From assembly GCF_002831625.1 (NCBI RefSeq), contig NZ_CP025116.1, forward strand, positions 744,001 to 808,000: a stretch of 64,000 nt of DNA, given 5' to 3'. Made by a program: the position numbers and the translations under genes. The DNA comes from Nonlabens sp. MB-3u-79. Lineage in GTDB: Bacteria > Bacteroidota > Bacteroidia > Flavobacteriales > Flavobacteriaceae. Under the pieces are notes generated by a model. That model saw only the letters and a list, made by a program, of their open reading frames with translations, did not search any database and was not told the DNA's origin. Every line of letters begins with the position of its first letter. Position 1 is the stretch's first letter. This document shows positions 3,765 to 60,339 of this stretch, one piece after another.

Positions 3765-3861
3765 CACAATTAAACTGTAAGATAGGCTATTGGTGGTGTA
3801 TGTCTCGCTTTCGCGAAAGCAGAATAGGCACTATTTAGAGTCGTTTTAAATAAGAATACTC

Positions 3862-4737
3862 ATGGAAAATATCGCTAAAGGTGCTGCTGAAATTACGATT
3901 ATAGAAGATGGATTTCACATCATTAGATTAAAAAATGACACTGCTGAAAAAGCCTCGTTTTTACATCATGTAGACAGTAGTTTTTTACAATTTCACTATT
4001 GTCTTAAAGGAAATATGCAACTGGCTTTTAATGAAGGTAGTTATCAACTGGATTTAAAGGAACAAAACTCGTATTTACTATACAATCCTTCGAGAGATTT
4101 ACCTATGAATCTGAATATCGGTCCACAAACTTGGTTCATTTCTGTGCTGATTTCTATCAAGAAATTTCACTCTCTTTTTTCTCCAGACGCACAACACGTA
4201 AGCTTTTTAAGTCCTGAGAATAAGGATAAAAAATACTATGTTGATGGTAAAATATCGCCATCTATGGCGGTAGCACTGCACCAACTCATGAATTACAACC
4301 TCAACGATACCATCAAACAATTGTATTTTAAAGGAAAGTCTTATGAATTGCTCTCCCTCTATTTTAATACTGAGGAAGAAGCAAATATAGATGCCTGCCC
4401 GTTTCTAGCCGACGAAGAAAACATGCGCAAGATCAAACGAGCTAAAGAAATTATCATCGAGCGCATGACTGATCCTCCTTCCCTTAACGATCTCTCGCGA
4501 GAAATAGGTTTATCACTTAAAAAACTTAAAGAGGGTTTTAAAGAGGTTTATGGAGATACGGTTTATGGTTTTGCCCTAGACCATAAAATGGATTATGCGC
4601 GACAGCTGCTCGACGGTGGCCAGCACAATGTCAACGAAGTGGGTTTAAAAGTAGGCTACAGCACAGGAAGTCATTTTATCAGTGCCTTTAAAAAGAAGTA
4701 TGGAACAACTCCTAAAAAGTATATCTCTGGGAAGTAG
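3862..4737 (+). CDS. AraC-family transcriptional regulator, divergent to hemA
   Basis: A 291-residue DNA-binding protein. The N-terminal about 180 residues look like a cupin-type sensing domain (YCLKGNMQLAFNEGSYQL), and the C-terminal 100 residues hold two helix-turn-helix units ending in VGYSTGSHFISAFKKKYGTTPKKY, the classic AraC signature. Divergent orientation to hemA with 191 bases between starts is common for regulators of their neighbours; AraC-type genes next to hemA are frequent in flavobacteria, so control of heme genes is a reasonable inference. The ligand is unknown. Confidence 0.92.
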   Translation: MENIAKGAAEITIIEDGFHIIRLKNDTAEKASFLHHVDSSFLQFHYCLKGNMQLAFNEGSYQLDLKEQNSYLLYNPSRDLPMNLNIGPQTWFISVLISIKKFHSLFSPDAQHVSFLSPENKDKKYYVDGKISPSMAVALHQLMNYNLNDTIKQLYFKGKSYELLSLYFNTEEEANIDACPFLADEENMRKIKRAKEIIIERMTDPPSLNDLSREIGLSLKKLKEGFKEVYGDTVYGFALDHKMDYARQLLDGGQHNVNEVGLKVGYSTGSHFISAFKKKYGTTPKKYISGK

Positions 4738-4790
4738 CAGTAAAATAGTTTCCATCAGGCGGTGTCATGCGCTCCGCCAATGAAGTTCAT

Positions 4791-4829
4791 AAAAAAACCG
4801 CCTGCAAGCAAAGACTGCTCCACAGGCGG
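4791..4829 (-). terminator. Terminator-like hairpin with no obvious gene upstream
   Basis: On the minus strand CCGCCTG pairs with CAGGCGG, with an inner AGCA/TGCT stem, followed by seven Ts. The nearest minus-strand gene (cvpA) ends more than 600 bases upstream, so this may end a long cvpA 3' region or a small RNA. Confidence 0.65.
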
Positions 4830-5404
4830 CTTCCAACCAACCAAATCTTTATGCGGTAACAACCGCCTTATTCTTTATTCTTCTGAGCTCTATTAAAATC
4901 GAGCATTCTATTCTTTGTACTATCAACGTCGCTGCTGTTCTTTAATTGTATGAATCCGCGGCCTTTGAATATGTAGGTAGTTCTACTTTGTAAATGATAC
5001 AATACTATCGTGTGATCGTCTCTATGTAAAGATCTAAAAAATCATTCCCTATAAAATCACAACCCCACGTTAATTGCTTGTTAATACTTATAGACCTCTG
5101 ATCTTAAACAATATAAGACCTAGTGTAGTCCTAAAACGCAGTACCTAAAGTTAGTACGTTTATATCTATATAACTTTCAAAAATAAGAGCATTATTTCCT
5201 TGTAAAACCTCAAGTAATTCTCTTAATCAAAATAATGGACAACTCCTATAACCATTTCTTTATCACAGCTCATTCATATTTAAACAAGAAATGCAGATCC
5301 TAAAAAGGCGGTAATTGTTTTCATCATAGTTGTGTTAAAAAGTTACCGCCGAGATTTCGAAAATCGCGCCAGTTTTTAAACAACTGATTAAAAGATCGTT
5401 GCGT

Positions 5405-5426
5405 TTCCGCTTTCGCGAAAGCGGAA
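5405..5426. repeat. Dispersed palindrome, extended copy
   Basis: Core GCTTTCGCGAAAGC at 5409-5422, here extended to a 22-base perfect palindrome with TTCC/GGAA flanks. It lies just downstream of cvpA. Copies of the same core occur at 3807, 8814, 15285, 15544, 17275 and 44581 between genes. Confidence 0.95.
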
Positions 5427-5455
5427 TAATAAATAAGTTAATTAATGTTCTAAAT

Positions 5456-6043
5456 CTAGAAAAAACTAAACCCTGTAGAGTCTTGGGGTTGCTCGAGGTC
5501 TTCTTGATCTGCATCCATATCTTCAAGATCATCAGCACGCAATTGTCTGTCCACACGATCTGCCTCTTCTAGGATTTTAGGAAGTAAAAAGGGAGCAAGA
5601 GGTGCGATGTGCTCATAAACAATACTGTTCTCCCTAATATCCTTTCCGATAATATGAAATTCTCCACTAGCCGAATTGATAAACATTAAGATCACACTAG
5701 CTAAAAACCCCATTTTTACAAGGCCAAAAGCTGCTCCTGCAATTTTATTAATAAAACTAAGCTGGACGGTTTTTATCACTTTGGTAATCAGCTTACCCAC
5801 ATAGGTAATGACAAAAATAATCACCAGGAAGGTCACTATAAAGCTGGCGATAGTAATATAAACATCATCCCACTCTACCTGTTCCCGCAACCAATCACCT
5901 GCAAAATTTGAAAAATAAATAGAGCCGTATATAGCAGCTATAAGAGCAATTAAAGAAGTTAACTCCACAAAAAAACCATTCAGGTATCCTTTGTAAAGAC
6001 CTATTAATAAAACAATGCAAATAACTATATCTAACCAATTCAT
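5456..6043 (-). CDS. CvpA-family membrane protein
   Basis: A 195-residue inner-membrane protein with four predicted helices (about 4-20, 26-46, 64-84, 103-122) opening with the family-typical NWLDIVICIVLLIGLYKGY. The acidic C-terminal tail (residues 158-190, rich in D and E) is cytoplasmic or periplasmic and less conserved. CvpA was linked to colicin V production in E. coli; its general role is envelope-related and not well defined. It stands alone, followed downstream by a dispersed palindrome and preceded by the mosaic repeat region. Confidence 0.88.
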   Translation of the reverse strand: MNWLDIVICIVLLIGLYKGYLNGFFVELTSLIALIAAIYGSIYFSNFAGDWLREQVEWDDVYITIASFIVTFLVIIFVITYVGKLITKVIKTVQLSFINKIAGAAFGLVKMGFLASVILMFINSASGEFHIIGKDIRENSIVYEHIAPLAPFLLPKILEEADRVDRQLRADDLEDMDADQEDLEQPQDSTGFSFF

Positions 6044-6106
6044 CGGGCTAAGTTAGGGAAAATTACCTGTTCTCAATTCATCACTGTGCTGCTGATTTTT
6101 GTGAGT

Positions 6107-6940
6107 AGATTCAGGTTTGAGTTTGAGTTCAAGTTCTCTGGCCTATCCTAAATCCTTTCCAAAGGAAAGGACCGCTATTTTCTTTATACTGGCTTTTGAG
6201 AATAGATTCAGGTTCGAGTTCAAGTTCAAGTTCAGGTTCAAGTTCGAGTTCTCTAGCCTAGCCTATCCTAAATCCTTTCCAAAGGAAAGGACCGCTATTT
6301 TCTTTATACTGGCTTTTGAGAATAGATTCAGGTTCGATTTCGAGTTTAAGTTCATCTTCAGTTTACCGCTTCTTTCCCCAACCCTAAAGGGTGGAAGCTA
6401 TTCTTTTAATTATCATTCCGCACTTGATGCGGAATCTGTGTATACTTCCTCGGTTTTTCATTTCATACATTCCCACCTCATCAACACCGCAACACCCATC
6501 CCAACCTTCCCTCAAGGGAAGGAGTTTTACTCCTTTTTTCGAGTTCAAGTACTCTAGCCTATCCTAAATCCTTTCCAAAGGAAAGGACCGCTATTTTCTT
6601 TATACTGGCTTTTGAGAATAGATTCAGGTTCGATTTCGAGTTCGAGTTCAAGTTCAAGTTCGAGTTCAGATTCTCTAGCCTAGCCTAAATCCTTTCCAAA
6701 GGAAAGGACCGCTATTTTATTTATACTGGCTTTTGAGAATAGATTCAGGTTCGAGTTCGAGTTCAAGTTCAAGTTCAAGCTCTCTAGCCTATCCTAAATC
6801 CTTTCCAAAGGAAAGGACCACTATTTTCTTTATACTGGCTTTTGAGAATAGATTCAGGTTCGAGTTCGATTTCGAGTTCGAGTTCAGGTTCGAGTTCGAT
6901 AGATTCCTGTTTCCGTTCCCCAGCCCTAAAGGGTGCGGAA
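6107..6940. repeat. Composite hairpin and hexanucleotide repeat array
   Basis: Five units of about 109-121 bases, each with the hairpin TCCTTTCCAAAGGAAAGGA (at 6153, 6273, 6569, 6690 and 6799), a constant block ending in TTTGAGAATAGATTCAGG, and a variable run of GAGTTC/AAGTTC hexamers. Unit length differs by multiples of six through hexamer number. The array is in two blocks (two units, then three), each closed by TTCCCCARCCCTAAAGGGTG (6374-6393 and 6916-6935). Between them lie other hairpins: ATTCCGCA/TGCGGAAT (6415-6434) and CCTTCCCTCAAGGGAAGG. Long open frames here are low-complexity by-products of the repeats, not genes. Confidence 0.93.
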
Positions 6941-7130
6941 ACAAAATTTAAAGCAACTAAAACAATATAAATCACCCTAATAAGCAATACAACTAACTAA
7001 AAGCATTTCCCTTTATTTCTAAGGAAAAACAGAGCTTGTGCCGATGAATATCGGTATTGGCGACGATCGTGGCAACGCCACGTGAGCAACCAAAAGGGTT
7101 TTTCGGTTGATCCTCACCCTACGAAAATTA

Positions 7131-7165
7131 AAAAACCTCAAAGATCAAAGATCTTTGAGGTTTTT
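7131..7165 (-). terminator. Terminator of glyS (bidirectional)
   Basis: A 16-base perfect stem, AAAAACCTCAAAGATC with GATCTTTGAGGTTTTT, around a 3-base loop; both strands end in T runs. It lies 50 bases beyond the glyS stop codon. Confidence 0.92.
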
Positions 7166-7215
7166 TATACTCTATATGCTGACTCATTTGTCGTCAACCG
7201 GTAGGTCTTGTGATT

Positions 7216-8760
7216 TTAAATCTTACGCAACCAAGTACTCATGCTTACACGAGATTCTAGGTAGTTCTTTAGTTCTTTAATAGCCACACGTTCTTGTGTC
7301 ATCGTATCGCGATCTCTTACGGTTACCGCATGATCTTCTTTAGTGTCGTGGTCAACAGTTACACAATAAGGTGTACCATTAGCATCCTGCCTTCTGTAAC
7401 GTCTCCCTATCGCGTCCTTCTCATCATACTGCACTTTTATAGACCATTTCAATTCGTCTATGATCTCGTTTGCTATTTCTGGAAGTCCGTCTTTTTTCAA
7501 TAAAGGCAAAATCGCTGCTTTTATTGGAGCGAGAACTGCTGGTAATTTTAAAACCGTACGCTCACTGCCATCTTCCAATTTCTCATCTTGTAGAGAATTA
7601 GAAAAAACCGCTAAAAACATTCTGTCCAAACCAATAGAAGTTTCTAATACGTAAGGAACATAATTTTTGTTTTCTTCGTGATCAAAGAATTGCAGCTTTT
7701 TACCGCTGTGTTCTTCATGAGCTTTCAGGTCAAAATCAGTACGAGAGTGAATTCCTTCTAGTTCTTTAAAACCAAATGGAAAATCAAATTCAATATCAGT
7801 CGCTGCATTGGCATAGTGCGCCATTTTTTCATGATCGTGAAAACGGTAGTTCTCATCTCCCATTCCTAAAGATCTGTGCCATGCCATGCGCTTTTCTTTC
7901 CAGATTTCAAACCATTCCAACTCAGTTCCTGGCTTTACAAAATATTGCATCTCCATTTGTTCAAACTCCCGCTGACGGAAGATAAATTGGCGAGCAACAA
8001 TCTCGTTTCTAAAAGCCTTTCCCGTTTGTGCAATTCCAAACGGAATTTTCATACGTCCAGATTTTTGAACATTCGAAAAGTTGACAAAAATTCCCTGCGC
8101 CGTTTCTGGTCTTAAAAATAATTCAGTAGCAGTATCAGCACTGGCACCTATTTTAGTACCGAACATTAGGTTGAACTGGCGTACGTCTGTCCAATTCTTA
8201 GAACCTGTATCAGGATCTGCTATTTCTAGTTCTTCTATGAGCGCTTTTACACCAGCAAGATCTTCAGCTTGTAGCAATTCTGCTAGTCTTGCCGTAGGTT
8301 CTGTAGCGTTTTTCATATAACCCATCACTCGCGGATTGGTCTCCCGATACATCGCTGCATCAAAGTCTTCACCAAAACGTTTTGCTGCTTTAGCAACTTC
8401 TTTTTCAGCCTTTTGAAGGTTTTTCTCGCAATAATCTTCTACCAGCACATCAGCACGGTAGCGTTTTTTAGAATCTTTATTGTCAATCAATGGATCGTTA
8501 AACGCGTCTACATGACCAGAAGCTTTCCATACCGTAGGATGCATAAAAATAGCCGTGTCTATACCTACAATATCTTGATTGAGCTGCGTCATTGCCTGCC
8601 ACCAGTACTCTCTGATATTTTTCTTTAACTCGACTCCATTCTGTCCGTAATCGTAAACAGCACTTAAACCGTCATAAATTTCACTAGATTGAAACACATA
8701 TCCGTACTCTTTTGCATGGGAGAGTACTTTTTTAAACTGATCGTCGTTGTTGTTTGCCAT
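7216..8760 (-). CDS. glyS: Glycine--tRNA ligase, dimeric type
   Basis: Charges tRNA-Gly with glycine in the cytoplasm. The 514-residue length and single chain fit the alpha2 class II enzyme (GlyQS type). Class II motif 2 is seen around FRNEIVARQFIFRQREFEQMEMQYF near the middle and motif 3 near ETSIGLDRMFLA; the C-terminal anticodon-binding domain follows (KLPAVLAPIKAAILPL onward). Start chosen at the ATG giving MANNNDDQFKKVLSHAKEYGYVF, which has a TAnnTTTG box 5 bases upstream, so the mRNA may be leaderless. Monocistronic, with its own strong terminator. Confidence 0.97.
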   Translation of the reverse strand: MANNNDDQFKKVLSHAKEYGYVFQSSEIYDGLSAVYDYGQNGVELKKNIREYWWQAMTQLNQDIVGIDTAIFMHPTVWKASGHVDAFNDPLIDNKDSKKRYRADVLVEDYCEKNLQKAEKEVAKAAKRFGEDFDAAMYRETNPRVMGYMKNATEPTARLAELLQAEDLAGVKALIEELEIADPDTGSKNWTDVRQFNLMFGTKIGASADTATELFLRPETAQGIFVNFSNVQKSGRMKIPFGIAQTGKAFRNEIVARQFIFRQREFEQMEMQYFVKPGTELEWFEIWKEKRMAWHRSLGMGDENYRFHDHEKMAHYANAATDIEFDFPFGFKELEGIHSRTDFDLKAHEEHSGKKLQFFDHEENKNYVPYVLETSIGLDRMFLAVFSNSLQDEKLEDGSERTVLKLPAVLAPIKAAILPLLKKDGLPEIANEIIDELKWSIKVQYDEKDAIGRRYRRQDANGTPYCVTVDHDTKEDHAVTVRDRDTMTQERVAIKELKNYLESRVSMSTWLRKI

Positions 8761-8765
8761 AGCTG

Positions 8766-8773
8766 CAAAAATA
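8766..8773 (-). promoter_or_regulatory. Candidate glyS -7 box, 5 bases from the start codon
   Basis: Minus strand TATTTTTG matches TAnnTTTG. With only 5 bases to the ATG, the transcript would start at or next to the start codon. No clear -33 TTG. Confidence 0.5.
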
Positions 8774-8810
8774 GAAAAAGCGTTGGAATGGTTGAGCTAT
8801 TTTTATGTAT

Positions 8811-8829
8811 TTCGCTTTCGCGAAAGCGA
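8811..8829. repeat. Dispersed palindrome copy upstream of glyS
   Basis: Core GCTTTCGCGAAAGC at 8814-8827, about 40 bases upstream of the glyS -7 box, in the gap before the coiled-coil protein gene. Confidence 0.95.
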
Positions 8830-8988
8830 GAACGTTACAATCTCCTATATCTACCTTCAAAAAGCCTAGTGAAAACATACCCTACATTTATAAACTCCTG
8901 TTCTGAAGCACGACGTTTATAAATACGATTGTTTAAAACACAAGATGATGGAACTCAAAAACAAAAGAGGTTGAAATAAAATAAATAC

Positions 8989-9870: not shown

Positions 9871-10602
9871 GTGGGGTTGTTTATCTTTATAACTTACGAA
9901 TCTAAAAAAAAAATTGTTCTGACGTGGTTTTCTGACTTTATTAACTTGTTCTTTCCTATAGTTTGCATGGGTTGCACTCATAGCTTAACAACGGGAGAGC
10001 AAGTGATATGCACTGCTTGCAGGTCTGAAATCCCTATCGCTCTCAATCATTTGGAAAAAGACGATAAAGTGAAAGAACTCTTCTTTGCTCGCGCTGATGT
10101 ACAAACGGCCACCAGCTTGTTTTATTATGAAAAAATAGGTGTCGTACAGCAATTAATCCATCAATTGAAATACCAAGGACGGGAAGAAGTCAGTGCATTT
10201 TTAGGTAAGTGGCTGGCTGCAGCACTACAAAACGATCCGGCTTTTCAAGAAATAGACTTGGTGATTCCAGTACCCGTGCATCCTAAACGACGTGCAAAAA
10301 GGGGCTATAATCAAGTAGATGGTTTTGGAAAAGAACTAGCAATTGCATTGGGGGCACGCTTTCGCGAAAGCGTGCTCATCAAAAGCCGCAACACGATCAA
10401 CCAAGCTCAGCTAGGGCAGGTAAAACGCAGTGACGAGACGCAATCGCCCTATAAACTTATGGAACAAATTGCTCCTGGAACACATGTTCTTCTTGTAGAC
10501 GATGTGATTACTACAGGAACAACGCTGGCGCTCTGCGCTAAAGAGTTGCACAAAAATCCAGGTATTCAACTGTCCATTGCCACTATGGCGGTATCCGTTT
10601 AA
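9859..10602 (+). CDS. comF: ComF-family phosphoribosyltransferase-like protein
   Basis: ComF proteins are needed for natural transformation in several bacteria, handling single-stranded DNA entry. A zinc-binding cluster (C36, C39, C51, C54) is followed by a phosphoribosyltransferase fold with the PRPP loop VLLVDDVITTGTTL near the C-terminus. The start is uncertain: the ATG at 9859 is the only one before the zinc cluster but overlaps the divergent neighbour by 12 bases; the conserved part begins around TWFSDFINLFFP, so a non-ATG start near 9920 is possible. A dispersed palindrome (10358-10371) is read in frame as RFRES around residues 167-171, in a surface segment. Confidence 0.88.
   Translation: MLCHVGLFIFITYESKKKIVLTWFSDFINLFFPIVCMGCTHSLTTGEQVICTACRSEIPIALNHLEKDDKVKELFFARADVQTATSLFYYEKIGVVQQLIHQLKYQGREEVSAFLGKWLAAALQNDPAFQEIDLVIPVPVHPKRRAKRGYNQVDGFGKELAIALGARFRESVLIKSRNTINQAQLGQVKRSDETQSPYKLMEQIAPGTHVLLVDDVITTGTTLALCAKELHKNPGIQLSIATMAVSV
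10358..10371. repeat. Dispersed palindrome inside comF (frame RFRES)
   Basis: Core GCTTTCGCGAAAGC, extended here to GCACGCTTTCGCGAAAGCGT with GC flanks, read through without frameshift. Confidence 0.95.
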
Positions 10603-15209: not shown

Positions 15210-15607
15210 TTTAAAATCAAAATCAAAAAGAAAACTAAACTCCAGTTTAGCCTTCCATTTATCTATGTTATTTATAGCAGTTCCGCTTTCGCGAAAGCGA
15301 AATTTCAAATTAGTATACTGTTATAATTCTAATTGTTTCAATATTCGTTACTCATTAATCGGTGTTCGATATTCAGTCATTGGTTTTTTTAGTATTTTAA
15401 ATCTTTCCTTGCTAACACCTATCCCAGCCTTCCCTCGAGGGAAGTAGCTTTTCAGAATAAGCTTTAGCTTCACAACAAAACGTTTTCGACTACCGCTCCA
15501 ACTGGCATTTTCATTTCTTATTTTTCTTTCTTTCTTTCTTTCCGCTTTCGCGAAAGCGAGATGATTATCATTATTTTACCTTTTCAAAAGAAATTCTGAA
15601 CTCCTAT
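15210..15607. other. Repeat-filled gap inside the metal transport operon
   Basis: Contains two dispersed palindromes (15285-15298 and 15544-15557), the 20-base dispersed repeat CATTAATCGGTGTTCGATAT (15353-15372), an intergenic hairpin unit with CTTCCCTCGAGGGAAG (15415-15452) and a TTTC microsatellite (about 15521-15540). No gene seen. Confidence 0.85.
15353..15452 (+). repeat. Dispersed intergenic element, copy 1
   Basis: Starts with CATTAATCGGTGTTCGATAT, continues through TTTTAAATCT and ends in the hairpin CTTCCCTCGAGGGAAG. The 20-base start recurs exactly, inverted, at 27400-27419, again followed by an AAAATCT word and a pyrimidine/purine hairpin; the hairpin part recurs at 6492-6530. Confidence 0.75.
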
Positions 15608-17253: not shown

Positions 17254-17352
17254 GAGATTTTATTTTATTGTTCCGCTTTCGCGAAAGCGAGATTGTATTT
17301 AGACATCAAATGATTCATAAGGAATCCGTTTTTATATATTCCTGATTTAGCA

Positions 17353-23975: not shown

Positions 23976-24632
23976 ATGAAGGACAGCATTCTATCCACAA
24001 AGATTTTAACAGAGTCACAAGTAGAACTCGTTCTAAATACTGGAATAAGTCTTACCCATTATGACTTGCTAAAAACAGAACCCATTCACATGGATTCTAC
24101 TGAAAACTGGGATCAAGTTATAATTACGAGCCAGAATGCCATTCCTGCGTTATTAGCCCATCGTAAATTCATAAAAAATGTTTATTGCGTAGGTGAAGTT
24201 ACAGCCGTTTCTTTAAAAAAAAATGAAATCCACCCTATACATATTGCTAATAACGCTGTGGATCTTGCAAAAATATTAATCACCAACTATCCAGAAAAGA
24301 ACTTCTTATATTTATGTAGTGAACAACGTAGAGATGAACTTCCAGCGATATTTCTCCAAGAAAAAATACCTTTAATAGAACTTTTTGTTTACCGATCTAT
24401 TGCCGTCATGAAAAGCTTTGATCGTATTTTTGCAGCGGTAACTTTTTATAGTCCTAGAGGTGTGCACGCTTTCGCGAAAGCGAATCCCCACAACAAACCT
24501 CTTACCGCAATTTGTATAGGAAAAACCACCGCTAACACTGCTGCTGCTTATTATAAAAACGTAAAAATAGCAACAAAGCAAACCATAGAAAACACACTGA
24601 TAACCGCAATAAAAGCGTTACGCAATGATTAA
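23976..24632 (+). CDS. hemD: Uroporphyrinogen-III synthase
   Basis: Cyclises hydroxymethylbilane to uroporphyrinogen III. A 218-residue protein of the poorly conserved HemD fold, recognised from [52 protein letters not shown] and [12 protein letters not shown]. It overlaps hemE by 8 bases and starts the hemD-hemE-EI24-hemF unit. The dispersed palindrome is read in frame as AFAKA at residues 165-169, right after the SPRGV motif, in a region where HemD proteins vary. Confidence 0.92.
24468..24481. repeat. Dispersed palindrome inside hemD (frame AFAKA)
   Basis: Exact core GCTTTCGCGAAAGC, read through as residues 165-169 of HemD. Confidence 0.95.
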
Positions 24633-32678: not shown

Positions 32679-33422
32679 CTAATTCCTCCCATTCTCCTCT
32701 GGATAAAAAGTGTACACTGGATCACTTTGCCAAATTTCTTTTGTTTCTACACACATAGCCGTTAATGGTCCTTTGTAGGCAGCTGCCGTATCGAGATTCC
32801 AAACATTTGCTGCATTCATAGGCTGGTACTCCCCCCAACTATGTGTAGGTGTATGACCTATAAAAATCTCTTTGTAGAGTTTTAATCTATTAGGATACCT
32901 GTCGTTATCTTCTTTTAAATTAGGGTCTAGCGCCAGTGCCATTTCCCATAAAGTGCGGTCCCAGCAGGTAATACTTTTAAAGTATTCATATTCAGGACCC
33001 CTTAGGTTGTGAAAACCTGCATGAAAAAACCCATTCCCATTCAGCTCATAATAATTGTGAAGATCGTTCTTGAGAAAATCAAAATGCACTTCGATTTCTT
33101 CCTTAGTTTTACTTGCATAACTATCCACAGTACTTTCCCCCCCATGAAGCAACCACAATTTATGCGGGTGCCTTGCCTGTAAGTTATCTACCACTAACTC
33201 ATCGTGATTGCCTCTGAGGTAAATAGGAGGAGTTTGTTTGTTTTGTTTACGCTTTCGCGAAAGCGAAATTAAAAAATCTACCACTTCATAATTTTGAGAC
33301 CACCCGTCTACATAATCTCCTAAGAAAATAAGCTGATCGTCATCTTTTAATTTTATTTTATCTATTAATTGAACGAGGGCTTTGTAACCGCCGTGAATGT
33401 CTCCTATTGCAATGGTTCTCAT
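32679..33422 (-). CDS. Metallophosphoesterase (PPP-type phosphatase)
   Basis: A 247-residue cytoplasmic calcineurin-like phosphatase, possibly acting on Ap4A or phosphoproteins. The metal motifs are all present: GDIHGG (D8, H10), GDYVDGW (D36), GNHDE (N72, H73) and later IGHTPTHS. The dispersed palindrome is read in frame as SLSRKRK at residues 53-59, in the loop between the second and third metal motifs where the family varies in length. It starts 3 bases after the neighbouring AlbA-type gene ends, so they form a pair. Confidence 0.9.
   Translation of the reverse strand: MRTIAIGDIHGGYKALVQLIDKIKLKDDDQLIFLGDYVDGWSQNYEVVDFLISLSRKRKQNKQTPPIYLRGNHDELVVDNLQARHPHKLWLLHGGESTVDSYASKTKEEIEVHFDFLKNDLHNYYELNGNGFFHAGFHNLRGPEYEYFKSITCWDRTLWEMALALDPNLKEDNDRYPNRLKLYKEIFIGHTPTHSWGEYQPMNAANVWNLDTAAAYKGPLTAMCVETKEIWQSDPVYTFYPEENGRN
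33251..33264. repeat. Dispersed palindrome inside the phosphatase gene (frame SLSRKR)
   Basis: Exact core GCTTTCGCGAAAGC, the only intragenic copy in this reading frame. Confidence 0.95.
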
Positions 33423-37092: not shown

Positions 37093-38786
37093 GAGTTAAG
37101 ATCTCTTAAACGCAGCTGTAAAGAAGTACTTCCCTGCCACTCATTTTCATCGATAGAATAAGCAATATCGAACTTTTTACCGTCGGCAATATGCTCATAT
37201 TTACTTCCCATATTAAAACCTATAGCATTAAATGCAATGCTTTCCCCTTTTTTTGTGGCAACTTTAATTTTAAGATGGTCTTCCTCTTTACCTACACATT
37301 TACCATAACCTGTATCGACCACATTTTTAGTCATAAAAACTGGGGTCATATTTCCTGGGCCAAATGGCGCCATTTGCTGCAGAATACGATAAAACTTAGG
37401 TGTAATGTGCTCTAGTGGAAGTTTAGAGTCTATATGAATCTCTGGGGTTAAATGTTGTTTTTCTATAGTGGCAGCTACTACTTCTTCAAAGCGAGCTTTA
37501 AACTTTTCGTAATTCTCTGGTAATAGTGTGAGCCCAGCGGCATACATGTGTCCCCCAAATTGCTCGATATAATCAGCACATTGTTCCAGGGCATTATACA
37601 CATCAAAACCTTTGACACTACGCGCGCTTGCCGCAAGCTGATCACCCGATTTAGTGAATACTAATGTAGGTCGGTAATAATTTTCTATTAATCTAGAGGC
37701 CACTATTCCTATCACGCCCTTATGCCAGCTTTCGTCGTAGACTACGCTCGTAAATGTATCTTCTTCTTTATTAGTTATAATTTGCTGTATGGCTTCTTGC
37801 GTTATGGATTGGTCCAGTTCTCTTCTATCTGAATTATAGTTCTCAATCGATGCTGCAAATTCTTGTGCTTTTTCTAAATCTGTTTCTTTGAGCAGCTCTA
37901 CTGCATGAAGTCCATGCTTCATTCTTCCAGCAGCGTTGATGCGGGGAGCAATGGTAAAAACTACGTCCGTAATCGTAAGTTTTGTTTTGTTTAAATTGGC
38001 GATAATCGCCTCAAAACCTGCTCGCGGGCTCGTATTAATAACATTAAGGCCGTGATAAGCAAGAATTCTATTTTCCCCGGTCATGGGTACAATATCTGCT
38101 CCTATTGCCGTAGCCACTAAATCTAAATAAGGTATCAAAATTTCAAATTCCCAATCGTTTGCAATGGTTAACGCCTGACATAATTTAAAACCAACACCAC
38201 AACCGCACAATTCGTCATAAGGATAAGAGCAATCTGGGCGTTTAGGGTCGAGAATTGCTACAGCATCTGGCAGTTCTTTCCCTGGTCTGTGGTGATCGCA
38301 AATAATAAAGTCGATCCCTTTTTCTTTAGCATAAGCTACTTTATCGATGGCTTTTATACCACAATCTAAGGCAATGATAAGCGAGAAATCATTGTCAGCT
38401 GCAAAGTCAACTCCTTTAAAACTGACTCCATAACCTTCCTCATAACGGTCGGGAATATAAGTAGAAACACGGTCGTAGAAACTTTCAAGAAAAGTGGACA
38501 TCAATGCCACACTAGTAGTTCCATCTACATCATAGTCACCGTAAACAAGGATGTTCTCATTGTTACCTACTGCTTTTTGAATCCGCTTTACTGCTAGGTC
38601 CATATCCTTCATAAGATAAGGGTCATGGAGTTCTTCTAGGTCAGGTCTAAAATAGGATCTCGCTTTCGCGAAAGCGTCCACACCACGCTGCACTAACAAA
38701 CCAGCAAGAAAAGGATCAATGCCTAGTTCCTGAGCAAGTTGTTGTTGTTTTTGAGAATCTGGTATGGGTTTTAGAGTCCAGCGCAT
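37089..38786 (-). CDS. recJ: Single-stranded-DNA-specific exonuclease RecJ
   Basis: 5'-3' exonuclease for single-stranded DNA in recombination and mismatch repair. The 565-residue protein has the DHH-family motifs DYDVDGTTS (84-92), DCGIKA (141-146), CDHHRPG (163-169) and the DHHA1 part with SARSVKGFDVYNAL and GGHMYAAGLTL. The dispersed palindrome is read in frame as AFAKA at residues 38-42, before the catalytic core. Appears monocistronic. Confidence 0.96.
   Translation of the reverse strand: MRWTLKPIPDSQKQQQLAQELGIDPFLAGLLVQRGVDAFAKARSYFRPDLEELHDPYLMKDMDLAVKRIQKAVGNNENILVYGDYDVDGTTSVALMSTFLESFYDRVSTYIPDRYEEGYGVSFKGVDFAADNDFSLIIALDCGIKAIDKVAYAKEKGIDFIICDHHRPGKELPDAVAILDPKRPDCSYPYDELCGCGVGFKLCQALTIANDWEFEILIPYLDLVATAIGADIVPMTGENRILAYHGLNVINTSPRAGFEAIIANLNKTKLTITDVVFTIAPRINAAGRMKHGLHAVELLKETDLEKAQEFAASIENYNSDRRELDQSITQEAIQQIITNKEEDTFTSVVYDESWHKGVIGIVASRLIENYYRPTLVFTKSGDQLAASARSVKGFDVYNALEQCADYIEQFGGHMYAAGLTLLPENYEKFKARFEEVVAATIEKQHLTPEIHIDSKLPLEHITPKFYRILQQMAPFGPGNMTPVFMTKNVVDTGYGKCVGKEEDHLKIKVATKKGESIAFNAIGFNMGSKYEHIADGKKFDIAYSIDENEWQGSTSLQLRLRDLNS
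38662..38675. repeat. Dispersed palindrome inside recJ (frame AFAKA)
   Basis: Exact core GCTTTCGCGAAAGC read through as residues 38-42 of RecJ. Confidence 0.95.
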
Positions 38787-44580: not shown

Positions 44581-44594
44581 GCTTTCGCGAAAGC
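44581..44594. repeat. Dispersed palindrome between plsC and desaturase
   Basis: Exact core GCTTTCGCGAAAGC, 12 bases beyond the plsC stop codon. Confidence 0.95.
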
Positions 44595-52230: not shown

Positions 52231-53106
52231 TTATTCACCATCAGGTGTGGTTTTCTTATTGTTTTCTGCTTTTTTAGCTTCTGCTTCTGCTTTTCTTTTT
52301 GCTACTGCGGCAGCTCTAACCTCAATAGTACTATCTCTCTTACGCTGGCGTTCTTCCAACATTTTATCTCTACGCTCTTTATATTCAGCAGCCTTTGCAG
52401 CCCTTGTGGAGTCCCGTATCCTTTTTTGTTCATTGCGTTCTGCATTGCGATCAGTAATGGCTTGTTGCATTTCCTCTTTCTTGTCTTCTCTAACCTGCTC
52501 TTTTTCTTCCTTCTGCTCTGCTTCTTCTACAGATAAGTAGGGCTCAACTTTATCCTCTTGTTTCTGATCTGCCTCTCTTTTCTTACCAGCTCTTCCTATT
52601 GCTCTTAAAATTTGATCACTTATATCATGACGCTCTGCGCTGTATAACATAGCCACTTCTGAGCTATCTACTATATAATCGTATTTTCTTTGACTTCCTA
52701 TTTTTTGAATTTCATTAAAAACTTGATCCTGTACTGGCTGTATTAATTGTTGTTTTTGCAACAAAAAGTCACCTTGTGCTCCAAATCTTTTTTGCTGATA
52801 CTCAGCAAGTTCTTGTTCTTTTAGGGCTATATCTTCTTCTTTTTCTTCAATAAGCTCTTTGGTGAGTAGTACTTTCTCATTTTGAAGAGTGGCTTTCATT
52901 TGAGAAATTTCATTTGACATTTTATCAATCTCTCCTTTCCACTTTTGCATTTTTTGCTCCAGTTGTTTTGATGCCTCTTGATACTCTGGCACACTTTCTA
53001 GGATGTACTCCATATCTATGTAGCCCACTCTTACTCCCCTTTGCGCTTTCGCGAAAGCGAAACTAAAAAAGGCCGCTATACCGATAATTAAAATCTTATT
53101 TTTCAT
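52231..53106 (-). CDS. OmpH/Skp-family chaperone with long charged C-terminal tail
   Basis: A 291-residue protein from the ATG at 53106, with signal peptide ending AFAKA before Q22; those residues are encoded by the dispersed palindrome. The Skp-like domain covers about residues 22-180 (YIDMEYILESVPEYQEA to RKYDYIVDSSEVAMLYS). Unlike ordinary Skp (about 160-175 residues), about 110 further residues follow, almost entirely charged helix with repeated RDST words. Probably a periplasmic chaperone with an extended coiled coil; the tail's role is unknown. Confidence 0.9.
   Translation of the reverse strand: MKNKILIIGIAAFFSFAFAKAQRGVRVGYIDMEYILESVPEYQEASKQLEQKMQKWKGEIDKMSNEISQMKATLQNEKVLLTKELIEEKEEDIALKEQELAEYQQKRFGAQGDFLLQKQQLIQPVQDQVFNEIQKIGSQRKYDYIVDSSEVAMLYSAERHDISDQILRAIGRAGKKREADQKQEDKVEPYLSVEEAEQKEEKEQVREDKKEEMQQAITDRNAERNEQKRIRDSTRAAKAAEYKERRDKMLEERQRKRDSTIEVRAAAVAKRKAEAEAKKAENNKKTTPDGE
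53045..53058. repeat. Dispersed palindrome in ompH signal peptide (frame AFAKA)
   Basis: Exact core GCTTTCGCGAAAGC, providing the A-K-A signal-peptidase site of the long OmpH protein. Confidence 0.95.
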
Positions 53107-55720: not shown

Positions 55721-55721
55721 T

Positions 55722-56456
55722 CTATAATTGTTCACTTGTTTTACCAAACCTTCTTTCTCTATCTTGATAATTATGTATAGCTTCTACCAGATGTTCTTTT
55801 CTGAAATCTGGCCAAAGCACTTCTGTAAAATATAATTCTGCATAAGCGATTTGCCATAAAAGGAAATTACTTATTCTTTGTTCTCCACTGGTACGTATCA
55901 ACAAATCTACATCTGGCATATAGCTCGTATATAAATGTTTATTGATGACATCAGTATCAATCTGTTCTATTTTTAATGTACCATCCTTTACTTGACTGGC
56001 CACATTTTTAATCACTGTAATCAACTCTTCTCGCGAACCATAACTCAAGGCCAGAGTTAAATTCATCCTGTTGTTATTCTTAGTAGCTTCAATTACTTCT
56101 GCTAGTTCTCTTTGAGCTGTTTTAGGTAAAAGCTCTAATACTCCCACGGCCTTAAGAGAGATGTTATTCTTTTGTAAGGTGGAAAGTTCCTTTTTAAGGC
56201 TAGAAACCAGCAACCTCATCAAGGTATCTATTTCTAACTTGGGTCTTTTCCAGTTTTCTGTGCTAAAAGCATATAAAGTCAAATGCTCTACACCTAACTC
56301 TGCACAGGTCTCTACGGTCTGACGTACTGCTTTAGCACCTTTTTCATGACCGCGCACTCTCATCAGACCCTGTTTTTTAGCCCATCTACCGTTACCATCC
56401 ATGATAACTGCAATGTGCTTAGGGATTCTGGTATGATCAAGTAGTTCTTGTGCCAT
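55722..56456 (-). CDS. uppS: Isoprenyl transferase (undecaprenyl diphosphate synthase)
   Basis: Makes undecaprenyl diphosphate, carrier for peptidoglycan and O-antigen units. The 244-residue protein has catalytic D20 in AVIMDGNGRWAKKQGL, the YAFSTENWKRP motif and the final RTSGEQRISNFLLWQIAYAEL block. It starts 2 bases after the DUF6089 gene and ends 1 base before the bamA start, in one operon. Confidence 0.97.
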   Translation of the reverse strand: MAQELLDHTRIPKHIAVIMDGNGRWAKKQGLMRVRGHEKGAKAVRQTVETCAELGVEHLTLYAFSTENWKRPKLEIDTLMRLLVSSLKKELSTLQKNNISLKAVGVLELLPKTAQRELAEVIEATKNNNRMNLTLALSYGSREELITVIKNVASQVKDGTLKIEQIDTDVINKHLYTSYMPDVDLLIRTSGEQRISNFLLWQIAYAELYFTEVLWPDFRKEHLVEAIHNYQDRERRFGKTSEQL

Positions 56457-56458
56457 TT

Positions 56459-57145
56459 TTAAAAGTTACAATAACAAGGTTTACGACCGAAAGCATAAGT
56501 AAGAGTCACTCCACTAAATACGTACCAGTCATTATTATTTACATTACCAAATCTTAAACTATCAAAATCTTTACTTCTCACTGGGTTGCTTCCATCTAAA
56601 TTATCCGAAAAAGTATATCTAGCGCCTATCTCTGCAGCGAGTATCAATTTAGGGGTAATATTTGTCTTTACTCCAAAAATTATAGGGATCGCAATATCTG
56701 TAGTTTCACCGTATGCTTCCAACTGATTTGTGTTATTTAGTGCAAACAAGTCATAATGAAATGCGGTAAGTCCTGTATATAAATAAGGAACGATCTGTGG
56801 TCTACCAGAATACAACTCCCATTCCCAGAAGGTGTATTCTACTCCTATACTGGCTTCTATCATGGAGTAATTGTATTTTAAACCTCTTAGATCTCTAGAG
56901 AGATCGTCACTATCATTATCATCACCTACCATATTTGCAGAAATCACACTAGCTCTAAAACTATGTCTAGGACTGCGATTCCACTTAAAAATGCCGCCAA
57001 TGGCAACATCTGTAAACTGAATGTATTGTGTACTTCCTACATCCCCTATTACATTTGAGGTACCTGCAAAAATACCGGCCTCATAGGTTTGCGCTTTCGC
57101 GAAAGCGAGACTAAAAAAGACAATAAACGTAAATAGTAACCGCAT
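56459..57145 (-). CDS. DUF6089-family outer-membrane protein
   Basis: A 228-residue beta-barrel-like protein with signal peptide MRLLFTFIVFFSLAFAKA and cleavage before Q19; AFAKA is encoded by the dispersed palindrome. The mature sequence (EAGIFAGTSNVIGDVGST, ASIGVEYTFWEWE, LTYAFGRKPCYCNF) matches the DUF6089 pattern typically found next to uppS in Bacteroidota. Function unknown; position suggests an envelope role. A TATATTTG box lies upstream at 57163-57170. Confidence 0.85.
   Translation of the reverse strand: MRLLFTFIVFFSLAFAKAQTYEAGIFAGTSNVIGDVGSTQYIQFTDVAIGGIFKWNRSPRHSFRASVISANMVGDDNDSDDLSRDLRGLKYNYSMIEASIGVEYTFWEWELYSGRPQIVPYLYTGLTAFHYDLFALNNTNQLEAYGETTDIAIPIIFGVKTNITPKLILAAEIGARYTFSDNLDGSNPVRSKDFDSLRFGNVNNNDWYVFSGVTLTYAFGRKPCYCNF
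57093..57106. repeat. Dispersed palindrome in DUF6089 signal peptide (frame AFAKA)
   Basis: Exact core GCTTTCGCGAAAGC, again at the signal-peptidase site. Confidence 0.95.
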
Positions 57146-57162
57146 GGAATTTTTAAAACGTG

Positions 57163-57170
57163 CAAATATA
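57163..57170 (-). promoter_or_regulatory. Candidate -7 box of the envelope operon
   Basis: Minus strand TATATTTG, 17 bases before the DUF6089 start, matches TAnnTTTG; -33 is not clear. Confidence 0.5.
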
Positions 57171-57247
57171 ACAATTCTCTTTACCCAGCATGATGTTTGC
57201 GTGCTCGATTGTAGAATAAGAAAACAAGGAATGATTGATTTTATTGT

Positions 57248-58123
57248 TTAATTGCGTTTATCTTCTCCCCAAAGCAGTTTTTCTCGTAGAGTTTTGATAA
57301 AACTCTGACCTTTTAACTCGATGAGATCAATGGTGAAATCTGCTTTTTTAAGTGTGAGAACGGTTTCATTAGGAAAAGAAGCTATGCGGTTGTCTAAGGA
57401 GGTAAGAAACTCTTCTTCTCTACCGCTCACTTTTATAATAATCTCTGTGTGATCTGGAATTACTAAAGGCCTCGCATTAAGGTTGTGTGGAGCAATAGGT
57501 GTAATTACAAAAGCGTCTGTATCTCTCGATATAACTGGTCCACCGCAACTAAGACTGTATCCTGTAGAACCTGTAGGTGTGGAAACAATTAATCCGTCTG
57601 CCCAATAAACGGTTAATAACTCGTTATTGAGTTTGGTCTCAATTTGCATCATACTGGTCGTATTCATGCGACTAACCGTTACCTCGTTAAGTGCAAAGTT
57701 GTGTGGCGCTGCATGATTTTCTTCATGGTCTGACACCAAAGTGATCAACGTACGTTTACTCAAGGTATAGGACCCGTTACTTAAAGCCTCTACCGCCTCC
57801 ACAAGCTGATCTTTATGCAATGTCGCTAGGAAACCCAGTCTGCCCGTGTTGATTCCTATTACTGGAATACCAACATTGCCTATATAAGCAACAGCTCTTA
57901 AAATAGTACCGTCCCCTCCTATACTTATCAATATATCATAGGAGTTATCTAGTTGATCAAAGGACTGCTGTTTTAAAGCTATATTATTTTGCTTTAAAAG
58001 ATTGTGAAAATTAGATTCGACAAGTACTTCAGAGTTTTTAAGCTCTAACAGAGTAATTAACTCTTTACAAGTATTGATCGTATCATCGTGTAGATAACGA
58101 CCGTATATAGCAACTTTTTTCAT
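57248..58123 (-). CDS. nadK: NAD kinase
   Basis: Phosphorylates NAD to NADP. The 291-residue protein has the GGDGT motif (69-73), the NE-containing FALNEVTVSR and the TPTGSTGYSLS loop. It begins directly after the CBS gene (adjacent bases), so both are one unit; the uppS operon follows across about 100 bases. Confidence 0.97.
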   Translation of the reverse strand: MKKVAIYGRYLHDDTINTCKELITLLELKNSEVLVESNFHNLLKQNNIALKQQSFDQLDNSYDILISIGGDGTILRAVAYIGNVGIPVIGINTGRLGFLATLHKDQLVEAVEALSNGSYTLSKRTLITLVSDHEENHAAPHNFALNEVTVSRMNTTSMMQIETKLNNELLTVYWADGLIVSTPTGSTGYSLSCGGPVISRDTDAFVITPIAPHNLNARPLVIPDHTEIIIKVSGREEEFLTSLDNRIASFPNETVLTLKKADFTIDLIELKGQSFIKTLREKLLWGEDKRN

Positions 58124-58789
58124 TTACATGTTCAAATATTTGTTCAAATAATCTGATCGTTCTTTTAAAGTATCTAAGTAAGAGTCTTCTTCTGCTGCGC
58201 TTACTATCTCATAATTATACCTTCTAAAGGTTTGAAGAACAGCATTTAGATTTTGCGCACTCAATTTTAAAGTAATCTCAGATAAATGATCCTTATAAGC
58301 ACTCACAAAACATCCATAGATCTTTGAATCATTAGACTCGACTATTTGCGCAACCTCACTAAAACTATAATCAGTAGAGCCTTTTTGTAAAACGACAACA
58401 GCACCAGGCTCATTCATAAAAGGGGCGTCGTTAAACAACTCCATAATGTCCTTAAGTTCATAGTAACCTAAATACTCGTTATTCTTACCTAAGACCGGCA
58501 TGATATTCGATTGATTTTGAGCAAATACTGCCAAAATATCTAGCCAGTGTGTATCTTCTTTTACATGAAATACGGTGAAAGAATACTTCACCACCTCAAG
58601 GGTTTGACCAGATTCAAAACAATGAGCATCATTTTCAGAAAGACATCCTAAATAAGCCCCCTTTTCTAAAATAGGAAGATGAGAATAGGTAAGTTGAGAA
58701 AATATTTCTTGTGCTTTACACATCTGAGATTTTATGTCTAAAGGCTCTACATCATTAATGATATATTGATGGATATTCATTGAAATCAA
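58124..58789 (-). CDS. CBS-domain protein
   Basis: A 221-residue protein with two CBS motifs in the first 135 residues (YSHLPILEKGAYLGCLSENDA and IMPVLGKNNEYLGYYELKDI), which usually bind adenosine nucleotides, and a C-terminal part of about 80 residues that looks ACT-like (AVVVLQKGSTDYSFSEVAQIVE). AcuB-like layout. It sits directly in front of nadK, suggesting nucleotide-dependent regulation, which is inference. Confidence 0.88.
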   Translation of the reverse strand: MISMNIHQYIINDVEPLDIKSQMCKAQEIFSQLTYSHLPILEKGAYLGCLSENDAHCFESGQTLEVVKYSFTVFHVKEDTHWLDILAVFAQNQSNIMPVLGKNNEYLGYYELKDIMELFNDAPFMNEPGAVVVLQKGSTDYSFSEVAQIVESNDSKIYGCFVSAYKDHLSEITLKLSAQNLNAVLQTFRRYNYEIVSAAEEDSYLDTLKERSDYLNKYLNM

Positions 58790-58841
58790 GTTTATTGCAA
58801 ATTAATCAATTCTTCACTTATGCGTCTGACAGAATCCGTTG

Positions 58842-58849
58842 TATTTTTG
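58842..58849 (+). promoter_or_regulatory. Candidate pdxJ -7 box
   Basis: TATTTTTG matches TAnnTTTG, 15 bases before the pdxJ ATG at 58865, supporting that start over the earlier in-frame ATG at 58820. Confidence 0.5.
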
Positions 58850-58864
58850 AAAATAAAAGCAACT

Positions 58865-59578
58865 ATGGCAATTTTAAGTGTAAATGTCAATAAAATAGCA
58901 ACATTACGTAATTCTAGAGGTGCTGATGTGCCTAATTTAATAAAGGTAGCTATTGATCTAGAACGTTTTGGTGCGCAAGGAATAACCATTCACCCTAGAC
59001 CAGATGAACGTCATATTAGATATCAAGACGCTAGAGATCTTAAAAAAGTGGTGCAAACTGAACTGAATATAGAAGGTAACCCTATTGATAGTTTTATCAA
59101 GTTAGTAAATGAAGTTCAACCTGCGCAAGTAACTCTAGTTCCTGATGGACCAGACGCACTTACTTCTAACGCGGGATGGGACACCATTAAACACCTAGAT
59201 TTTCTTACAAAAATGGTCAAGCATTTTAAAGACCGAGGAATACGCACCAGTATCTTTGTGGATCCTGTTATCGAGATGATAGAAGGAGCGGCACGCACTG
59301 GAGTTGATCGTATTGAACTCTATACCGAAGATTTTGCAAGAATGTACCCTCAGGACAAAAACAAAGCAATTGCTCCCTACCTAATAGCAGCAACTAAAGC
59401 TACTGAATTGGGACTGGGAATTAACGCTGGTCATGATCTCTCTCTAGAAAATATTAAATTTTTTAAGGAACAAATTCCAGATTTAGTGGAGGTTTCTATA
59501 GGTCATGCTTTGATATCAGAAAGTCTTTACCTAGGCCTTGAAAATGTGGTCAACATGTATAAAGCAAAACTCGCATAA
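58865..59578 (+). CDS. pdxJ: Pyridoxine 5'-phosphate synthase
   Basis: Final ring-closing enzyme of vitamin B6 synthesis (DXP-dependent route). A 237-residue TIM barrel from the ATG at 58865 (MAILSVNVNKIATLRNSRG). Conserved features include ITIHPRPDERHIRY, QVTLVPD, TSIFVDP, RIELYTE and INAGHDLS, then VSIGHALI. Its stop overlaps the next gene start by one base. Confidence 0.96.
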   Translation: MAILSVNVNKIATLRNSRGADVPNLIKVAIDLERFGAQGITIHPRPDERHIRYQDARDLKKVVQTELNIEGNPIDSFIKLVNEVQPAQVTLVPDGPDALTSNAGWDTIKHLDFLTKMVKHFKDRGIRTSIFVDPVIEMIEGAARTGVDRIELYTEDFARMYPQDKNKAIAPYLIAATKATELGLGINAGHDLSLENIKFFKEQIPDLVEVSIGHALISESLYLGLENVVNMYKAKLA

Positions 59579-60339
59579 TGCTACATTCTATAATTTTAGG
59601 AGAAGGACAGCCTTTTTTAATTCTACATGGGTTTTTAGGAATGGCAGACAATTGGAAGACACTTGGTGCTAAATGGAGTGAAAACGGGTATCAAGTTCAT
59701 TTGATTGACCAGCGCAATCACGGTCGCAGCTTGCACAGCGATACATTTAGTTACGAGATCATGGCTCAAGACATCAAAGAGTACTGTGACGCGCATCAAC
59801 TTCAAAACATCATACTTCTAGGTCATAGTATGGGCGGTAAAGTAGCGATGAAATTTGCTTCCCTTTATGAGTCTTATCTCAATAAACTCATCATTGCAGA
59901 CATTGCTCCTAAAGAATATGCTCCCCACCATAGCGATATCATCAACGGCCTGAGAAGTATAGATTTTGACATCGTCAAGTCTCGCAATGAGGCCGATGAA
60001 ATGTTAGGGAAAGTGATTCCTGATTTTGGTACGCGCCAGTTTTTACTGAAAAGTCTCTATCGAGTTGATAAAAATCGATACGGGTGGCGTTTTAATCTAA
60101 AAGTTCTAGGCGCAGCACAAGATAAAGTTGGTATTCAAGAACCTATTGTTAATCCCATAAATACGCCCACTTTATTTATACGAGGTGGAAAGTCTGGATA
60201 TATTTTAGATAGTGATATGATGCTTATAGAGCACGCTTTCGCGAAAGCGGAATTAAAAACAATAAAAGGAGCAGGACACTGGCTTCATGCCGAGAAACCT
60301 CAAGAATTCTACTCTTTTGTTGAGAATTTCGTAATATAA
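59578..60339 (+). CDS. Alpha/beta-fold hydrolase
   Basis: A 253-residue cytoplasmic hydrolase, YbfF-like: oxyanion motif HGFLGMADNW, DQRNHGRS, nucleophile elbow GHSMGG and the final histidine in GAGHWLHAEKP. Substrate is probably a short-chain ester or acyl-CoA. The dispersed palindrome is read as AFAKA at residues 220-224, before the final strand. Coupled by one-base overlap to pdxJ. Confidence 0.92.
   Translation: MLHSIILGEGQPFLILHGFLGMADNWKTLGAKWSENGYQVHLIDQRNHGRSLHSDTFSYEIMAQDIKEYCDAHQLQNIILLGHSMGGKVAMKFASLYESYLNKLIIADIAPKEYAPHHSDIINGLRSIDFDIVKSRNEADEMLGKVIPDFGTRQFLLKSLYRVDKNRYGWRFNLKVLGAAQDKVGIQEPIVNPINTPTLFIRGGKSGYILDSDMMLIEHAFAKAELKTIKGAGHWLHAEKPQEFYSFVENFVI
60235..60248. repeat. Dispersed palindrome inside the hydrolase gene (frame AFAKA)
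   Basis: Exact core GCTTTCGCGAAAGC read as residues 220-224. Confidence 0.95.

Follow-up and report, generated by a model that had tools for sequence, protein, structure and literature searches.

What is the role of a 14-letter palindrome that recurs over and over in a bacterial chromosome, both between and inside genes? The question is raised by a 64,000-nucleotide stretch of Nonlabens sp. MB-3u-79 (contig NZ_CP025116.1, positions 744,001 to 808,000; the window hereafter), where a preliminary description made from the letters alone had picked out the palindrome GCTTTCGCGAAAGC. The window genome is labelled G000, and other genomes and other stretches carry G- and L-numbers, respectively. An exact match count recovered 14 copies, all at the coordinates initially given (Table 1), and no one-mismatch copies were found in the window. 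At up to two mismatches, 15 matches were obtained against a mean of 0.14 and a maximum of 2 in dinucleotide shuffles, in agreement with the earlier estimate of far less than one chance copy per 64 kb. Taken with the evidence that follows, we regard it as nearly certain that the palindrome is a genuine self-DNA signal, specific to a clade, strongly maintained and read by some protein.

The single 3.18-Mb contig of G000 carries 563 exact copies of GCTTTCGCGAAAGC and none of the reversed control, which is nowhere near chance level; with up to two mismatches the numbers are 671 and 11, respectively. We have also sampled 464 kb of this genome, consisting of 20 spread 20-kb stretches plus the window. 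Exact copies numbered 82 in the sample (0 for the reversed control), one-mismatch copies 12 (0), two-mismatch copies 5 (4) and three-mismatch copies 20 (20). The copies are thus overwhelmingly exact. No earlier report of GCTTTCGCGAAAGC was found among the papers listed in searches of the open-licence literature, subscription papers and preprints being outside the scope of that search.

The RecJ protein of the window genome matches those of N. dokdonensis and N. ulvanivorans at 87% and 79%, respectively, and its placement in Nonlabens was backed by trees. All 23 Nonlabens genomes turned out to be rich in the motif (288–857 copies each), and 0 of 16 non-Nonlabens genomes counted alongside had any copy of GCTTTCGCGAAAGC. 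A family sample of 249 genomes had at least one copy in 53, three of which were Nonlabens; among the other 50, more than 17 copies were present only in G226 (408) and G242 (857), so that two further genera of Flavobacteriaceae are motif-rich. In a phylum sample of 395 genomes a match was found in 22, none of them, apart from G000, with more than 6 copies. The core TTTCGCGAAA gave a concordant picture, with 602 copies in G000, 559 in G226 and 1107 in G242, and at most 34 per genome outside the three lineages in the family sample. The comparison with relatives that the preliminary description had proposed thus limits extreme over-representation to three lineages, a feature expected of the DNA uptake sequences (DUS) and uptake signal sequences (USS) of other bacteria.

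In the RecJ tree, G242 and G226 grouped with two Dokdonia metagenome-assembled genomes (support 95/94), beside Nonlabens. The three adjacent lineages required 3 label changes, at least 2 of them forced by starred branches, with the Dokdonia genomes provisionally scored as motif-free. In a tree of the SusC-like barrel protein described below, the palindrome-free genomes G105 and G095 were intermixed with the motif lineages. A single origin of the motif followed by later losses would be plausible.

The signal extends beyond the 14 letters. Over 129 distinct sites, C at -1 and G at +1 were present in 91%, which defines a 16-bp core made of C, the 14-mer and G. In the left arm, T is favoured at -3, -4, -7, -10 and -13, and there is avoidance of C at most positions between -4 and about -17; the mirroring of the right arm is built into the folded count, but it was also visible in one-sided genic tables. 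The symmetric preference zone thus spans about 48 bp, with arms of about 17 bp on each side. The two arms vary independently, with 245 matches between them versus 248.5 expected in 53 intergenic sites, and this absence of covariation fits a protein that reads duplex DNA better than a hairpin.

One-mismatch copies were surveyed in 984 kb of Nonlabens, which yielded 21 distinct contexts, some of them orthologous. The mismatches fell only at folded positions 1, 2, 5 and 6 (5, 4, 7 and 5 cases, respectively). The chance of sparing three of the seven positions 21 times would be about 8e-6, as calculated by hand under equal and independent mutability. The same four positions accounted for all 4 one-mismatch copies of G226 and for 11 of the 12 of G242 (stretches L122-L126, L330 and L345-L347), the remaining one lying at position 7. 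Five of these 12 copies in G242 showed C>T at the same core CpG (position 6), compared with 1 of 21 in Nonlabens.

We have then compared orthologous sites among species. Table 1 sites that aligned with G005 (89% identity) were exact in 9 of 10 cases, 4 of the 14 being left out as unaligned, against 27% for background 14-mers. The corresponding values were 11/12 with G007 (78% identity, 2 left out, background 5%), 12/12 with G002 (78.5%, 2 left out, background 5%), 1/2 with G003 (73%, 12 left out, background 2%) and 5/5 with G014 (71%, 9 left out, background 2%). Pairing six genomes in both directions (30 ordered pairs) gave 176 exact sites out of 199, a sum made by hand; these comparisons are not mutually independent. 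The G000, G007 and G002 pairs, near 78% identity, gave 74 of 78 exact, both in genes (40/42, background 5.0%) and between them (34/36, background 9.5%), which answers in the positive the question of whether sister species keep the copies. Between genera few sites were comparable, and exact position sharing among them amounted to 0/4 from G242 to Nonlabens, 0/2 from G226 to Nonlabens and 0/28 from Nonlabens to G242, many of the last being recJ counted repeatedly. Of the G000 sites, just 3 found a coding relative outside the genus, G242 supplying 2 of these and G226 the third; none was exact, the closest being recJ of G226 with one mismatch.

The recJ site is informative on how copies arise. At this place other genera mostly encode [ST][FY]..A[KR] and most Nonlabens AFAKA, with no indel in the compared rows. 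In the 23 Nonlabens, 16 copies were exact, 4 read ACTTTCGCGAAAGC, 2 were other one- or two-base variants and 1 had none; G226 has an ACTTT form and G242 a two-mismatch form. Across 76 aligned loci of other genera, the nearest match had 4 mismatches. Conservation of the intragenic copies as protein motifs in distant homologues, an objection that the preliminary description had raised, is thus not seen at recJ, although the F..A[KR] peptide skeleton predates the DNA motif. As judged from the alignment, the recJ copy arose through point substitution and not through insertion. Single and triple substitutions were seen at other orthologous sites, and two places in G007 aligned poorly, with gaps.

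Regarding placement, 54 of the 82 copies in the 464-kb sample were genic, versus 72 expected from crude open reading frame (ORF) calls. Tandem gaps held 14 copies versus 5.2 expected, convergent gaps 5 versus 1.5 and divergent gaps 8 versus 2.1, with 1 copy at an edge; intergenic enrichment is thus about 3-4 fold by gap class in all orientations. DUS likewise show an intergenic excess. For 85 sites listed within the initial 415 kb of G000 (a further 8 listed near 3.0 Mb were set aside), the spacing had a coefficient of variation of 0.65 versus 0.98 expected, with 0 of 20,000 simulations as low, and only 2 gaps were shorter than 1 kb versus 15.5 expected; the window holds one close pair, 259 bp apart. 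The 20 samples of 20 kb around the chromosome had 1-6 copies each, with no obvious regional effect, and site-free stretches of 20-30 kb occur. Two motif deserts coincided with a glycosyltransferase/Wzt polysaccharide cluster and with a Wadjet-type defence island, and both appear to be acquired islands. The latter desert, in Nonlabens G004 (L341:3244-9814), encodes JetD, an SbcC-like SMC protein and DUF3375.

The most likely use of the palindrome would be that of a DNA-uptake or self-DNA preference signal in natural transformation. We consider this the best single mechanism, with somewhat less than an even chance of being right, ahead of a chromosome-organiser site. A sequence-specific and probably dimeric protein would read the palindrome as double-stranded DNA, and a receptor would prefer motif-bearing DNA. 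Recombination would then keep swapping decayed sites for intact ones, a biased drive as proposed for the DUS of Neisseria and the USS of Haemophilus.

The family offers a candidate machinery for such a process. Riemerella, placed in the Flavobacteriaceae, is described as transforming without pilus homologues (PMC8459023). It requires, according to the same work, ComEC, DprA, ComF and RecA as well as four proteins whose role is unknown, among them one with DUF5689 and one of the outer membrane that bears a carboxypeptidase-regulatory domain. R. columbina is reported to favour its own DNA, and the candidate signals described in that study were counted as short k-mers only, of about 10 bp (PMC7965970). 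Homologues of this last surface pair are present in Nonlabens. In G000, ComEC was found, and the DUF5689 protein matched the NCBIfam M949_1556-type lipoprotein with 174 bits, below the model cut-off of 475. Its gene adjoins that of a 947-residue SusC-like barrel, which has a CarbopepD_reg_2 domain and, at E 0.023, a weak match to Plug, and a divergent Exo_endo_phos_3 gene lies beside the pair. This trio of DUF5689 protein, SusC-like barrel and Exo_endo_phos_3 nuclease (as in L328:9273-14786) recurred in 12 of 12 Flavobacteriaceae neighbourhoods, and it would appear to be a module for DNA import that needs no pilus. Were the surface pair to work as a SusCD-like dimer, a palindromic shape of the signal would be the natural consequence, which is conjecture. 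In a more specific proposal, which we hold to be rather doubtful, the palindrome would be a self-DNA tag of Nonlabens and its relatives, and a pilus-free, SusCD-like DNA importer of Flavobacteriaceae would, as a dimer, recognise both strands simultaneously.

The DUF5689 protein was also considered as a lineage-specific receptor and rejected, as it is present in 16 of 16 genomes and no feature of the palindrome lineages was apparent by eye (comparison without G000, G236 and G065). Within 20-kb DUF5689 neighbourhoods (n = 12) there was no extra gene exclusive to the three motif lineages.

Phages bear on the reading as an uptake signal. Not a single copy occurred in P12024S (35.7 kb) or in the portion of P12024L that was covered (30 of 35.65 kb), a related pair of Nonlabens phages; about 11.6 would be expected in these 65.7 kb at chromosome density. 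A scan of viral contigs gave at least 120 stretches with the motif. Among the matches listed, 132 phage sites were scored by their flanks. Of these, 31 ranked above the 5th percentile seen for Nonlabens sites and the others lower, and the overall median was -10, versus +11 in Nonlabens. Among the high scorers is a group of related temperate-type IMG/VR contigs (L213, L231, L255, L264, L285 and L288) with 2-3 sites per 12-16 kb read and Nonlabens-like flanks; one member has portal, major head and tape-measure genes and another an integrase. These are probably phages of the motif-rich clade, the temperate or lytic lifestyle being inferred and the samples small. For comparison, Pasteurellaceae USS are reported to be accumulated by most temperate phages and to be poor in large, likely lytic ones (PMC6776037).

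Several points weigh against an uptake signal. The known DUS and USS are non-palindromic, and the competence of Nonlabens is a presumption. A receptor or reader protein was not found among the candidate uptake genes; these genes do not discriminate, because palindrome-free genera are included among the 16/16 genomes with DUF5689, the 12/12 neighbourhoods with the barrel and the 5/5 genomes with ComEC. Position conservation is very strong, and direct selection explains it as well as drive does. The spacing of G004 (94 listed sites on one contig) had a coefficient of variation of 0.92 (p 0.25), although short gaps were rare there as well (5 versus 18 expected). The phage contigs were found through the motif, which inflates their apparent site density, and they lack a host assignment; moreover, both the phage pattern and the island pattern would fit any long-resident chromosome motif.

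The motif may instead be bound by a protein dedicated to chromosome organisation or segregation (nucleoid-associated, condensin-loading or occlusion-type), which would need sites at regular distances, with direct selection acting on them. Such a role, which we judge unlikely but worth serious attention, would agree with a dimer-like palindrome with arm preference, with under-dispersed spacing and strong conservation, and with coverage of the whole chromosome at 1-6 copies per 20-kb sample. The sites of parS, Noc, SlmA and matS type are palindromic or near-palindromic targets of dimeric DNA-binding proteins, present in tens of copies with a regional bias to origin or terminus. The Nonlabens motif differs from these by its 563 copies and by the lack of any obviously depleted or enriched region in 20 samples; furthermore, 20-30 kb stretches are site-free, and phages with many sites have no evident need for an organiser. 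A recombination, repair or replication site (Chi-like or a nick site) used by a lineage-specific enzyme seems improbable, as no candidate enzyme emerged and a symmetric zone of about 48 bp exceeds what a nuclease pause site usually needs, even if the genome-wide occurrence, the enrichment in gaps of all orientations and the presence on some temperate-type phage contigs would suit it. Chi-type sites are short and directional. The intergenic enrichment of about 3-4 fold by class would be expected of the operator of a global transcription factor, yet 54 of 82 sampled copies lie within genes and both convergent and divergent gaps are enriched, which leaves very little room for this explanation. 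There is scarcely any for a transcription terminator or RNA hairpin element: the 14-mer can fold into a 5-bp stem on either strand, but divergent gaps are enriched (8 versus 2.1 expected), the core is preceded by T-rich and followed by A-rich sequence, the opposite of a U-tract, and the arms lack covariation.

The preliminary description had listed a protein-binding site, an uptake signal and a mobile palindrome as options, with HIP1 (highly iterated palindrome 1) and REP/DUS-type repeats (repetitive extragenic palindromic, in the case of REP) as analogues. What survives of this list is a motif recognised in trans as self-DNA, which in its behaviour comes nearest to DUS and USS. Transposase-driven spread of a mobile or REP-like palindrome would explain the many identical copies, but it is unsupported because within the genus the copies keep their orthologous places and the one in recJ came by substitution of a related codon string, without an indel; we give it hardly any credence. 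HIP1 of cyanobacteria is, like the Nonlabens motif, palindromic and highly iterated across a clade, and a palindrome of this kind could be made and kept by an orphan DNA methyltransferase with methylation-directed repair. HIP1 is, however, 8 bp long and tied to methyltransferases, a link drawn by Elhai 2015 (PMC4390886), whereas the Nonlabens motif has 16 bp plus long arms. One-off copies of HIP1 are biased to the first and last bases; those of Nonlabens are not confined to the outside (9 of 21 at the outer two positions), and C>T at the CpG accounts for 1 of 21.

The methyltransferase searches gave a similar answer. PF00145, PF01555 and PF02086 had no match in G000, G007 or G008 (other families were not searched). 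In 21 of the 23 Nonlabens genomes plus G226 and G242, PF00145 was present in 13 of 23 and PF01555 also in 13 of 23 (12 over cut-off); PF02086 was found in 1 of 10 genomes searched, namely G242. Since the three families are absent from several motif-rich genomes, a HIP1-like methylation cycle acting through them cannot be general, and this option is unsupported for the three families; we consider it quite improbable overall. In its favour, G242 has PF00145 and PF02086 matches, two of the three families, and C>T at the core CpG in 5 of 12 one-mismatch copies, so that the motif may be methylated there.

An uptake signal, to return to the preferred reading, can be set beside the two established systems. 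USS of Haemophilus and other Pasteurellaceae resemble the Nonlabens motif by occurring in hundreds of exact copies, by a core with AT-rich flank preference as reported in PMC12616744 and by an over-representation that, according to PMC1939737, drops steeply from exact to one-mismatch copies; a higher density in core than in accessory genes, described for USS in PMC6776037, may be a further parallel. They differ in being asymmetric, in serving a pilus-type machine and in belonging to Gammaproteobacteria, while the Nonlabens motif is palindromic, has two-sided arms, resides in Flavobacteriaceae and has a putative uptake role. DUS of Neisseriaceae are similarly a genome-wide self-DNA tag, but they are asymmetric, and ComP, a minor pilin, is reported to be their reader (PMC12616744).

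Few groups are known to have self-DNA signals, and the origin of such signals is a matter of debate. Here, a clean, strong and clade-restricted signal is found in a family with reported pilus-free transformation, in which the DNA receptor is unproven. The motif is a ready bait for the reader protein, and the exact sites with their known orthologous gains and losses provide a test of drive versus selection. If the SusCD-like importer proposal were true, uptake signals would have evolved independently a third time, beside DUS and USS, and the geometry of the signal would be set by a dimeric receptor.

Table 1. Copies of the palindrome and one relative in the window
Feature	Position	Remarks
palindrome copy	3807..3820	intergenic; exact in G007
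palindrome copy	5409..5422	intergenic; exact in G005, G007
palindrome copy	8814..8827	intergenic; exact in G007, unalignable in G005
palindrome copy	10358..10371	within ComF-type gene (RFRES)
palindrome copy	15285..15298	residue 4 of TTG-started ABC-3 permease ORF, upstream of Pfam domain; probably intergenic
palindrome copy	15544..15557	intergenic; 259 bp from copy at 15285
palindrome copy	17275..17288	intergenic; exact in G005, G007
palindrome copy	24468..24481	within hemD (AFAKA)
palindrome copy	33251..33264	within calcineurin-like phosphoesterase gene (SLSRKR)
palindrome copy	38662..38675	within recJ (AFAKA); exact in 16/23 Nonlabens
palindrome copy	44581..44594	intergenic; one mismatch in G005, exact in G007
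palindrome copy	53045..53058	within ompH-like gene near signal-peptide region (AFAKA-Q); exact in G005, 3 mismatches in G007
palindrome copy	57093..57106	within DUF6089 gene near N-terminus (AFAKA-Q)
palindrome copy	60235..60248	within alpha/beta hydrolase gene (AFAKA)
two-mismatch relative of motif	937..950	typical C...G flanks; possibly decayed copy

The seven intragenic copies of the window and their peptides were as first described (AFAKA five times, RFRES and SLSRKR once each), and Pfam backed the gene names, with ComF-type (Pribosyltran plus a sub-threshold DZR_2), HEM4/HemD, RecJ (DHH, DHHA1 and RecJ_OB), Metallophos for the phosphatase, OmpH, DUF6089 and Abhydrolase for the hydrolase. 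The copy at 15285 had been listed as intergenic, which is probably correct despite the overlap with a TTG-started ORF. The statement that the copies are always in frame is right as to the peptides but needs qualification, as any position has a frame and the 14-mer is stop-free in all three. Frame 0 (AFAKA) was the commonest in the 464-kb sample, with 32 of 54 genic copies, the remaining two frames having 13 and 9. It occurred several times at or near signal-peptide ends as AFAKA-Q (53045 and 57093 in the window; also L109-L111 and L113), as if the motif settled where an AFAKA-type peptide does no harm.

A 10-mer scan of recJ loci of at least 8 kb revealed no "dialect" palindrome of comparable strength, the best other palindrome having 4 copies versus 0.09 expected, in L025. 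Some non-palindromic 10-mers scored as high, with a ratio of 651 in L060 versus 482 for the best 10-mer of the window. The L060 stretch, from Polaribacter sp. IC073, carries a different repeat, with GTCATTCCGA-type 10-mers in 4-7 copies in 21.7 kb.

We have finally looked at ten stretches from 8 genomes, out of the 48 in which the motif matched at low copy number, clusters being favoured in their choice. They contained 26 copies in total, 20 of which lay in efflux-like genes (RND, resistance-nodulation-division, pumps and outer-membrane or adaptor partners) or P-type ATPases, 2 in other genes and 4 outside any long ORF, gene identities being judged by eye from translations, with no profile search. 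Efflux- and P-type-ATPase-like segments with clustered copies are found in L109-L116 (Flavobacteriaceae G137, G114, G251, G123, G147 and G048), from several motif-poor genera, and in four of the low-copy genomes the same outer-membrane factor gene holds two copies at a distance of exactly 933 bp. These segments look like transfers out of the motif-rich clade, so that the motif would be usable as a tracer of gene transfer from it, for instance into efflux-gene islands elsewhere.

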